Assembly: GCA_902598735.1 (NCBI GenBank)
Contig: CACKCM010000003.1
Span: forward strand, 45,984 to 109,983
Source: an uncultured Pelagibacteraceae bacterium
Lineage (GTDB): Bacteria > Pseudomonadota > Alphaproteobacteria > Pelagibacterales > Pelagibacteraceae
DNA length: 64,000 nucleotides
Direction of reading: 5' to 3'
The position numbers were made by a program, and so were the translations under genes. Below are positions 22,490 to 47,241 of the stretch, one piece after another. Numbering within the stretch: position 1 is the stretch's first letter; each line of letters starts with the position of its first letter. The notes below the pieces were generated by a model, which was given only the letters and a program-made list of their open reading frames with translations, was not told the origin of the DNA and did not search any database.

Positions 22490-22534
22490 AAAATAAAAAA
22501 AGTTGTGAATTAATAAGTGTTAACGCCAATACGC

Positions 22535-22559
22535 AGGGGCGTTCTGTTGCCAGGTGCCC
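22535..22559. repeat. Proximal attachment-site repeat, 3'-terminal hairpin of the tmRNA coding piece
   Basis: Identical to 20881-20905; GGGGCACCTGGCAACAGAACGCCCC hairpin on minus strand. Confidence 0.85.
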
Positions 22560-22589
22560 CAAACCCCGTAACTTAATTAACTAAGTTAA

Positions 22590-22619
22590 TTAAGCTGCAA
22601 GTGCAAATTTTTGATTTGC
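22590..22619 (-). other. tmRNA proteolysis-tag reading frame ANQKFALAA*
   Basis: Read directly from the tmRNA coding piece; ends in ALAA typical of tmRNA tags. Confidence 0.88.
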
Positions 22620-22840
22620 ATTTATAAATTAGCCCGTAACGTCGGAGCCATCTCGAACGAAAGAACAGCCTTTAGACACCCGTCGATCCTAATTCACCCC
22701 CGTAAGTTGTAAATGGTGGAGGTGGTGGGTACTGCCCCCACGTCCGTGATGTTTATTACGAAATTCGTTTATCGTCATAGTTGGAAAACCAACACTATTA
22801 ATATAAAACTCTTTTGGAGAGATTCAATATTAAATTCTAA

Positions 22841-44647: not shown

Positions 44648-45049
44648 ATGAAAAAAATTTTAGGCTTTTTGCTTGGTCTCACTTTATTAACTGGTTGCGC
44701 TGAGTCTATAGCTCTATTAGGACCAACCTCCACCGCAGTAACAGGCGGAAACATTGCTCAGTCAACTCTTTCTTCAGCAGTAAATTTTGGGGTAAAAAAA
44801 CAAACTGGAAAAAGCCCAATGGAACATGCAATGACATATGCTGAGGGAATGAGTCCGCAGAAAAAGAAAGAGCCTTGCTTATCATTTGCTGAAAAAACTA
44901 ATTCAGAAATTTGTGCTATTGTGAAAAAACAATTGAAAATAACTAAATCGAAGATATTAAAGAAATCAAAGAAAAATTCTATAAAAGAACTTACTTCATC
45001 TCTTCAGCCTAATATAAATCAAAAATCTAAAATTAAGTATTTAGATTAA
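44648..45049 (+). CDS. Hypothetical lipoprotein, paralogue A
   Basis: Lipobox LLTGC, AESIALLGP, paralogous to 45190-45597. Confidence 0.75.
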   Translation: MKKILGFLLGLTLLTGCAESIALLGPTSTAVTGGNIAQSTLSSAVNFGVKKQTGKSPMEHAMTYAEGMSPQKKKEPCLSFAEKTNSEICAIVKKQLKITKSKILKKSKKNSIKELTSSLQPNINQKSKIKYLD

Positions 45050-45189
45050 TTTACTCTTAAACAAGTCAGCATTTTAAATTTAAGATTTTAACCACCTTGA
45101 GTTGTGTTAATAAAAATTAATACGCCAATAATTAACTTTTATTTAAAGATGAAGCAGATATATGGGACCAATCAAAACAAGATTTAATC

Positions 45190-45597
45190 ATGAAAAAAAT
45201 ATTGCTTTTATTATCATCTATTTTCCTGCTGAACGGTTGCGCTGAGTCGTTAGCATTACTCGGCCCAGGCGCCTCTAACGGAAGATTTGTTCAATCCAGT
45301 TTAAATTCAGCTATTAGTTATGGGGTTAAAAAACAAACAGGAAAAACTCCTTTGGAGCACGCTATTGCTTACGTAGAAGAAAAAAATCCAGAGAGAAAAA
45401 AAGAAACCTGCTTTTCTTCTTTTGAAATAACAAGGTCTGAATTTTGCACAATTGTTAAAAAACAAATTAAGTCTAAAAGCGCTGCTGTGGTAGAAAAGAC
45501 TACAGACTTTGTGAAAGAATTTCCAAAAAATAAAATTAAAGAAATATCTAAGATTGAAAAAATAGCAAAGAAATCAATTATTTATAATAGAAGATAA
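45190..45597 (+). CDS. Hypothetical lipoprotein, paralogue B
   Basis: Lipobox LLNGC, AESLALLGP, shared GVKKQTGK(S/T)P(M/L)EHA. Confidence 0.75.
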   Translation: MKKILLLLSSIFLLNGCAESLALLGPGASNGRFVQSSLNSAISYGVKKQTGKTPLEHAIAYVEEKNPERKKETCFSSFEITRSEFCTIVKKQIKSKSAAVVEKTTDFVKEFPKNKIKEISKIEKIAKKSIIYNRR

Positions 45598-45611: not shown

Positions 45612-45650
45612 GGGATGGCCCCAATAAAATTGGGACCACCTAACTTTTTT
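45612..45650. terminator. Bidirectional intrinsic terminator between lipoprotein B and metY
   Basis: GGATGGCCCCAATaaaATTGGGACCACC stem-loop with T tracts on both sides. Confidence 0.75.
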
Positions 45651-46941
45651 AAGCAGCTAAAGCTTGTTTGATATCAGCTATAATATCGTCTGGATGTTCA
45701 ATACCAATCGATAATCTTACATAACCTGGTGTTACACCTGCTGCCGCTAGCGCTGTGTCATCTAATTGACTGTGCGTAGTAGTAGCCGGGTGAATTGCTA
45801 AACTTCTAGCATCACCAATATTTGCAACGTGATATAGCATTTTTAAGTTATCAATGAATTTAGCACCAGCTTCTTTAGTGCCTAGATCCATTCCAACTAA
45901 AGATCCGTATCCACCTTGCATGTATTTTTTAGCTCTTTCTTTAATCTCCCCTTGATGATTAGTAGGGTAGATTACATTCTTAACTTTCTTTTGTGTTTCT
46001 AAGAAAGTAACAACTTTTTCTGCATTACTACAATGTTGTTTCATTCTAAGAGCAACTGTTTCCAAACCTTGAATAATTTGAAAAGCATTAAATGGACTTA
46101 ATGGAGCACCTAAGTCTCTCAATAAAACCACTCTTGCTCTGATTACAAATGGTATGTTAGCTCCTGTTAATTGAGGAACTGCATCTGCCCAAACGGCACC
46201 ACCATAACTTTGATCAGGTTCATTTATCAATGGTTGTCTTTTTCTGTCTTTAATCCAGTCAAAGTTTCCGCCATCAACAATTATTCCACCAATTGAAGTT
46301 CCGTGACCACCAATATATTTGGTCAAAGAGTGCATAACGATTGCAGCTCCATGAGCTAAAGGTTTACAAATAACTGGTGAAGCTGTGTTATCGATGATTA
46401 AAGGAATTCCTTTTTTTCTACCGATATCTGCAACTTCTTTAATTGGAAAAACACGAAGGTATGGATTTGGGCAAGACTCACCGTAGTAAGCTCTTGTTTT
46501 ATCATCAGTCACTTTTTCAAAGTTTTTAGGATTTGCAGGATCTGCAAATCTAACTTCAATACCTTGTTGTCTCAAAGTATTTTTGAATAAGTTTACTGTA
46601 CCTCCGTATAAGTCAGTTGAAGCAACAATATTGTCCCCAGCCTGTGCTAAATTTTGAATACACATTGCTGATGCTGCTTGACCTGAACCTACCGCTAATG
46701 CAGCTACACCACCTTCAAGTGCTGCAACTCTTTTCTCTAAAACATCAACTGTTGGGTTCATTATACGTGTATAAATATTACCAAATTCTTTTAAACCAAA
46801 TAAATTTGCTGCGTGTTCTGCATTTTTAAATTGGTAAGAAGTTGTTTGGTAAATTGGAACAGCTACTGCTGTAGTAGTAGGATCTGATCTGTAATCACTA
46901 CCATGTAAGCCAATAGTTTCCGGATGTTTAAAATCAGCCAT
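45649..46941 (-). CDS. metY: O-acetylhomoserine aminocarboxypropyltransferase/cysteine synthase
   Basis: PLP-dependent Cys/Met metabolism enzyme: ALAVGSGQAASAMCIQNLAQAGDNIVAS, MHSLTKYIGGHGTSIGG. Confidence 0.93.
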   Translation of the reverse strand: MADFKHPETIGLHGSDYRSDPTTTAVAVPIYQTTSYQFKNAEHAANLFGLKEFGNIYTRIMNPTVDVLEKRVAALEGGVAALAVGSGQAASAMCIQNLAQAGDNIVASTDLYGGTVNLFKNTLRQQGIEVRFADPANPKNFEKVTDDKTRAYYGESCPNPYLRVFPIKEVADIGRKKGIPLIIDNTASPVICKPLAHGAAIVMHSLTKYIGGHGTSIGGIIVDGGNFDWIKDRKRQPLINEPDQSYGGAVWADAVPQLTGANIPFVIRARVVLLRDLGAPLSPFNAFQIIQGLETVALRMKQHCSNAEKVVTFLETQKKVKNVIYPTNHQGEIKERAKKYMQGGYGSLVGMDLGTKEAGAKFIDNLKMLYHVANIGDARSLAIHPATTTHSQLDDTALAAAGVTPGYVRLSIGIEHPDDIIADIKQALAA

Positions 46942-47029
46942 TGATTTTCCCCCTTACTGTTTCTCTTATTGTCTCGTTCATTTTTTCTCCATTCTTGGAG
47001 AAGAATGAACGAATTTTAATTCTGTTCAT
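46934..47029 (-). CDS. 31-aa leader ORF between SAM-V and metY, stop overlapping metY start
   Basis: MNRIKIRSFFSKNGEKMNETIRETVRGKING*; SD AGGAGAAG directly before ATG; TGA overlaps metY start (AATGGCTGA). Confidence 0.6.
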   Translation of the reverse strand: MNRIKIRSFFSKNGEKMNETIRETVRGKING

Positions 47030-47100
47030 CTTCTCCTTTTTAGTACTTCGGCAAATGCCGGGTGTACAATATGGTTCAAATACCCGGTTTGATTTTAGAT
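47030..47100 (-). promoter_or_regulatory. SAM-V-like riboswitch overlapping the SD of the leader ORF
   Basis: AAACCGGGUAUUUGAACCAUAUUGUACACCCGGCAUUUGCCGAAGUACUAAAAAGGAGAAG; resembles the SAM-V class reported from marine bacteria. Confidence 0.75.
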
Positions 47101-47103
47101 TTT

Positions 47104-47138
47104 TCCAAAAAAAAACCACCGACTAAAGCGGTGGTCTG
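47104..47138 (-). terminator. Intrinsic terminator between SAM-II and SAM-V aptamers
   Basis: AGACCACCGCUUUAGUCGGUGGUUUUUUUUU. Confidence 0.88.
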
Positions 47139-47215
47139 AAAGACTTAGGCGCTTTAGCAGGATTTATTAAGCGCCCGCAAGTTGCTTTAACTCAGCGCTA
47201 AACAAATATACCAAG
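47139..47215 (-). promoter_or_regulatory. SAM-II-like riboswitch
   Basis: UUAGCGCUGAGUUAAAGCAACUUGCGGGCGCUUAAUAAAUCCUGCUAAAGCGCC resembles SAM-II (AGCGCUGA-UU..CUUGC.GCGC..UGCUAAA) upstream of a methionine-biosynthesis gene. Confidence 0.82.
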
Positions 47216-47241
47216 AAAATTAGGATATTGTCAACTATCAA

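Follow-up and report, generated by a model that had tools for sequence, protein, structure and literature searches.

SAR11 bacteria are the most abundant bacteria of the ocean, and the SAM-V riboswitch found in them is the textbook example of a translational riboswitch that acts by direct occlusion, its tail having been taken as the Shine-Dalgarno sequence (SD) in crystallographic and SHAPE work. The original paper on this class is reportedly that of Poiata from 2009. The tail is treated as an SD in PMC6061858, PMC11508383 and PMC9481103, and none of these three mentions a distal platform for SAM-V, while Poiata 2009, where such a platform was possibly noted, lies outside this set. For at least 86% of SAM-V sequences the P2a helix was described as including a probable SD, and its length with bound SAM as only 2 bp, with SAM binding being shown for the metY and bhmT representatives of HTCC1062 (PMC6061858), the aptamer considered below being a predicted one. 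Two described systems of HTCC1062 are closest to the present locus, namely the metY SAM-V, assigned to direct occlusion of the ribosome binding site (Huang and Lilley 2018, PMC6061858; Meyer 2009, PMC2704228), and the tandem SAM-II/SAM-V leader of bhmT (PMC11508383; review PMC9481103), in which SAM-V is held to govern the adjacent SD. Riboswitch-controlled upstream ORFs with reinitiation are known from Mycobacterium tuberculosis (PMC11260477).

In the current work, a stretch of 64,000 nucleotides from an uncultured bacterium of the Pelagibacteraceae (hereafter, the window) was analysed; this SAR11 family is the sole source of the 49 contigs of the genome collection that carry the same leader. 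The minus strand of the window holds, in this order, gshA, gshB, a SAM-II-like element, a terminator-like hairpin, SAM-V, an insert and metY; the putative SAM-II and terminator would stand before SAM-V in the order known from HTCC1062 bhmT. The relevant features are the following:

47134-47208, minus strand: SAM-II-like aptamer (SAM_alpha, RF00521), sub-threshold, putative first half of a SAM-II/SAM-V tandem (cmscan 20.7 bits against a gathering threshold of 36, E-value 0.015, 361-base scan)
47107-47135, minus strand: terminator-like hairpin, read from the sequence
47030-47094, minus strand: SAM-V riboswitch aptamer (RF01826), a member of the class by covariance model (69.5 bits against a gathering threshold of 41)
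47019-47036, minus strand: strand A, the aptamer tail GGAGAAGATGAACAGAAT with SD1 and ATG1, putative antisequestor, complementary to A' (p = 0.001)
46997-47013, minus strand: strand A', TTCGTTCATTCTTCTCC, anti-SD strand able by complementarity to pair with A or A''
46972-46990, minus strand: strand A'', GGAGAAAAAATGAACGAGA, containing SD2 and ATG2, where ORF2 starts, predicted to be sequestered by A' (p = 0.003)
46934-47029, minus strand: 31-aa frame, codons 1-16 being ORF1 across the switch and the last 15 being ORF2
46934-46981, minus strand: ORF2, 15 aa (MNETIRETVRGKING), overlapping metY by 8 nt, frame kept in 69 of 69 relatives
46930-46948, minus strand: predicted hairpin AAAATCA-ATGGC-TGATTTT, its loop holding the metY ATG (fold and sequence conservation)
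45649-46941, minus strand: metY, O-acetylhomoserine aminocarboxypropyltransferase (TIGR01326, 565.9 bits, cut-off 495.1)

The tail carries GGAG at 47036-47033, followed by AAG and by an ATG at 47029-47027, and an inverted repeat (47013-46997 and 46990-46972) closes a second SD and start codon (GGAGAAAAAATG; ATG2 at 46981-46979), one strand of this repeat (A') being complementary also to SD1 and ATG1. In shorter form, A is GGAGAAGATGAACAGAA, the aptamer tail, and A'' is GGAGAAAAAATGAACGA. The ATG of metY is at 46941-46939. SAM-II-like hits below threshold, about 100 nt 5' of SAM-V, recur in many relatives, and the Rfam thresholds probably under-count tandem SAM-II/SAM-V arrangements of the pattern seen at 47107-47208.

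Related genomes supplied SAM-V loci from about 240 places. At 104 metY loci the GGAG of the tail is directly the SD of metY, no more than about 10 nt from its start, as published for HTCC1062, and at 69 an insert of 86-90 nt follows the SAM-V tail. The window, in which 92 nt separate the GGAG from the metY start, does not have the described arrangement where the occluded SD is that of the regulated gene: it shares with HTCC1062 metY the aptamer, the GGAG tail, the metY target and, as predicted, the OFF response to SAM, but its tail would be the pairing partner of an anti-SD strand and not the SD of metY. Within the long-insert metY sequences, 67 fall into one clade (support 96/99) and one (L061) stands apart; the latter had been taken as a short intermediate as a second AAAAAGGAG had matched the search pattern, an assignment which was abandoned given that L061 has the full platform (strands A, A' and A'').

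As in known sequestor/antisequestor (anti-SD and anti-anti-SD) platforms, where three mutually exclusive strands decide whether an SD is open, the anti-SD strand of the window is complementary to a true SD and start codon, and strand A begins at the aptamer tail, shares the bases of A' and is exclusive with the sequestor, both complementarities being beyond chance in dinucleotide shuffles. The SAM-V case differs from the usual platforms in that the antisequestor doubles as an SD, which a start codon and a leader ORF often follow. All 19 leaders tested show significant A:A' complementarity (p ≤ 0.006 for each, dinucleotide shuffles), with a combined Fisher value of 7e-32 that is overstated since the lineages are related; A':A'' gives a combined 1.5e-12, yet not in every lineage (p of 0.3-0.67 in groups g12 and g3/g6). 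The 97 loci whose gene directly follows the SD show no A:A' complementarity (mean of -4.2 kcal/mol and median p of 0.53).

Considering that a MAFFT alignment of the bhmT leaders of genus group g4 misplaced helix ends, an alignment-free comparison of cognate and non-cognate strands was used. Cognate A:A' pairs reach -20.0 kcal/mol versus -14.3 for swapped ones (permutation p = 5e-5), with a mean loss of 5.7 kcal/mol on swapping A', and this advantage holds also inside one genus (17 g4 bhmT leaders); the corresponding advantage for A':A'' is weak (p = 0.14 on representatives). In the metY clade, A:A' is paired in 97.8% of cells (51 relatives) and A':A'' in 97.4%, and covariation is uninformative there since the helices vary too little: the platform strands are nearly invariant over the clade's 67 species-level genomes, with the spacer and loop varying freely. 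The same three-part design is found with other sequences before bhmT in four genus groups, including HTCC1062, and before metE-like genes in two. The HTCC1062 bhmT leader (L266) was identified by its SAM-V coordinates, which match the intergenic regions listed in PMC2704228; its bhmT starts about 66 nt past SAM-V behind strands of A, A' and A'' type, a distal platform that the published view of this leader does not describe. Some 77 nt separate the published SD of L266 (GGAG) from the bhmT ATG, and this SD could form a 12-bp helix with the anti-SD strand.

The switch was modelled solely as folding with A free or A blocked. Blocking A reduces the predicted openness of SD2 in 61 of the 69 metY leaders (0.34, against 0.63 when A is free) and in the majority of the other leaders; with A forced open in the fold it drops from 0.51 to 0.17 in the g4 bhmT leaders, and that of the SD2-AUG stretch drops from 0.95 to 0.40 in HTCC1062 bhmT. 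The free-energy model keeps SD2 closed despite a free A in several metY leaders (L164, L061) and in half of the g1 bhmT leaders, so that kinetics or ribosomes must be invoked for these. A role of the A:A' or A':A'' hairpins as terminators was considered and set aside, no U run being present after them.

From the established sequences, their conservation and coevolution, and the gene order, we infer a sequestor/antisequestor platform for SAM-V combined with coupling of ORF2 to metY, which we regard as the best explanation and as probably correct. SAM-V would then control metY at a distance, its tail A (GGAG...) being an antisequestor and not the SD of metY. At low SAM, a free A would pair with A' and keep it off A''; where AUG1 is present, A may also load a ribosome which, translating ORF1 through A', would have the same effect. 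With A' off A'', SD2 and AUG2 would be open and ORF2 translated, and ribosomes finishing ORF2 8 nt inside metY would open and start, or restart, metY. When SAM is bound, the aptamer (P2a and triplex) would hold A, the extent to which SAM-bound P2a blocks A being assumed here, and A' would shut SD2 and AUG2, turning off ORF2 and hence metY. The putative upstream SAM-II and terminator elements probably add transcriptional control. The position of the metY ATG in a predicted hairpin loop would favour dependence on ORF2, while the good SD of metY itself means that the coupling may be incomplete. The OFF direction agrees with the rise of HTCC1062 metY and bhmT under sulfur limitation (PMC5069961).

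The sequence-only reading of this DNA had instead placed a single 31-aa leader ORF between SAM-V and metY. The 31-codon frame with its peptide is indeed present, with AGGAGAAG and ATG after SAM-V and an open path to the TGA at 46936-46934, and the distinction drawn between the SD next to SAM-V and metY's own SD-like sequence (GGGGG, 46953-46949) is borne out. The 1-nt gap claimed between SD and ATG is an error, AGGAGAAG directly abutting the ATG; frame and gene do overlap, by 8 nt, but the TGA sits in metY codons 2-3 and not on the ATG. That reading contained neither the inverted repeat nor the proposed place of SD1 on one strand of a three-strand switch. The openness of the frame by itself proves nothing, since the same frame extends further 5' as 61 aa open from a GTG. 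In the 69 long metY leaders, an ATG is found at the position of ATG1 in 68 and a GTG in the remaining one, and the distance from ATG1 to ATG2 is in phase 2, 1 or 0 in 51, 9 and 9 cases, respectively. ORF1 is most commonly 17 aa long, its TGA being contained in an ATGA at ATG2, and otherwise ranges from 2 to 55 aa, with fusion into a frame of 31-32 aa in 8 leaders and a stop after 2-4 codons in 5. A conserved 31-aa leader peptide is rejected on these phases, lengths and stops, relatives with frameshifts or stops being the very outcome that the reading had named as its refutation. From ATG2, ORF2 is 15 aa in 67 leaders and 14 aa in 2, has indels in multiples of 3 only, and ends at +8 of metY in 69 of 69. 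The proposed translational coupling through a small ORF therefore keeps its basis in a stop-over-start ORF preceding metY throughout, but this ORF is not the 31-aa frame, and a conserved frame opening at the riboswitch-adjacent SD, as expected of a regulated upstream ORF, is not what ORF1 presents. Judged against sister genomes, the 31-aa frame would be a chimera, part platform and part ORF2, matching the order platform, bhmT or metE-like gene, ORF2, metY minus its first gene.

A ribosome relay could also operate without strand exchange, SAM-V hiding or exposing SD1 and translation of ORF1 melting A':A'' and thereby freeing SD2 for ORF2 and metY, much as in M. tuberculosis ppe2 (PMC11260477), where a small ORF likewise lies behind a riboswitch with its stop over the gene start; ppe2 differs in having a B12 riboswitch, in its actinobacterial host and in that translation of its upstream ORF was shown by experiment, the present case being predicted from sequence. 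The near-universal ATG1 fits such a relay, as does ORF1, which runs without a stop up to the gene start in 19 of 19 AUG1-bearing representatives (8 and 4 of the 19 for the two alternative frames), a set whose members are partly related and which excludes the five early-stop metY leaders. Openness by chance is improbable for the g3/g6 leaders of 121-130 nt (shuffle p 0.013-0.057), the stop of ORF1 is often found at the gene start or shortly beyond it, and in some leaders SD2 would open only by means of a ribosome. The most strongly selected feature, however, is the A:A' pairing, which hides SD1 and is the opposite of what a pure relay needs; in 5 of the 69 metY leaders ORF1 is cut short after 2-4 codons, and its frame shifts freely among leaders. 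Moreover, a start codon after SD1 is lacking in 10 of the 17 g4 bhmT leaders, where A:A' is kept all the same, so that the hairpins need no ORF; the scan for start codons spans 5-15 nt past GGAG and misses an ATG at 3 nt (as in L226 and L210), and the g4 counts only are used. A relay without strand exchange is accordingly judged unlikely. The view that ORF1 is wholly dispensable was in turn withdrawn on the openness result. We conclude that RNA strand exchange would be the shared core of the platform across lineages, with ORF1 translation probably assisting in those that keep AUG1.

That the 31-aa frame encodes a functional product, either a sensing leader peptide or the small basic protein that had been suggested, is very improbable. 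The ORF2 peptide (ETxRETxR core) is alike in the 69 metY leaders and 19 other junctions, and its divergence (dN 0.08, dS 0.16) is below the dS of metY (0.32), both of which speak for such a function, but the ORF1 codons are not frame-conserved, the fusion occurs in few leaders, and the dN/dS of ORF2 in frame (0.49) is not below that in the +1 frame (0.31), compared with 0.07 for metY. The dN/dS comparison that had been put forward as a check thus singles out the reading frame in neither ORF1 nor ORF2, which makes a function in cis or in coupling likelier than one of the peptide. The evidence gives no indication of a small basic protein. A methionine run or other sensing or stalling codons, as in attenuation leader peptides, are absent from the frame. 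Just as improbable is the view that the insert is a neutral remnant of a bhmT or metE-like deletion, metY using its own SD: the first gene of the operon does vary among sister genomes and the SD of metY is strong, but such a remnant would account neither for the near-invariance of the platform strands nor for the overlap of ORF2 with metY retained in all 69 leaders. ORF2 (46934-46981) also contains an internal 12-nt near-repeat, GAGACAATAAGA and GAAACAGTAAGG (ETIR ETVR).

Gene order indicates where ORF2 belongs. Genomes of the same genus that bear bhmT have the order platform, bhmT, ORF2, metY; in most of those with enough flanking sequence gshB precedes this array, just as gshB precedes the leader in the window. 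ORF2 is MKKETTRETVRGKING in these bhmT-bearing genomes and has its own SD, AAGGAGG; an ORF2 with an SD of its own is present at 17 bhmT-metY junctions and at one metE-like-metY junction. The ORF2/metY overlap is of the +8 type or of the type TAATG; the latter is found at two junctions outside the 69, and the AAAATCA/TGATTTT hairpin at the metY start is missing in TAATG-type junctions. A metE-like gene takes the place of bhmT in two genomes, and an ORF2 ending in TAATG was seen in one such leader (L356). In the window the first gene is absent and the platform directly adjoins ORF2, from which we infer loss of this gene here rather than its gain elsewhere. In a comparison of leaders L355-L374 with window positions 46900-47240, the first gene is bhmT, metE-like or none, and is always followed by ORF2 and metY. 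One further locus (L267, genome G236) has SAM-V and the platform strands but lacks a recognisable methionine gene downstream, and is thus an orphan leader.

The platform reading, which names sequestor and antisequestor strands, would amount to a second widespread mode of SAM-V action in SAR11, a proposal that we hold to be somewhat more probable than its negation: the tail would act as anti-anti-SD in a three-strand switch located distally and, where AUG1 is present, the start of a stop-free relay ORF, so that the published SD of HTCC1062 bhmT would not be the SD of bhmT. Such wiring appears more elaborate than what was found described for the SAM-V class. If the tail is an antisequestor at bhmT, at the metE-like genes and at metY of the large clade, the picture of how SAR11 regulates methionine and sulfur metabolism changes, and the bhmT leader of the cultured strain offers itself as a test case. 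Since some natural leaders have a leader ORF on this hairpin and others lack one, switching by RNA alone could be told apart from switching driven by ribosomes.

Several further observations were made. The g3/g6 bhmT leaders L226, L229, L231 and L232 have leader ORFs of 44-48 codons with similar sequences (MSNxKYQVNNCSxSIKL...) that end at the bhmT start. Positions 22532-22831 of the window hold an ordinary permuted alphaproteobacterial tmRNA. Downstream of metY on the opposite strand, positions 44648-45597 hold a paralogous pair of small lipoprotein-like ORFs (133 and 135 aa), and such a pair recurs in L276 and L279.
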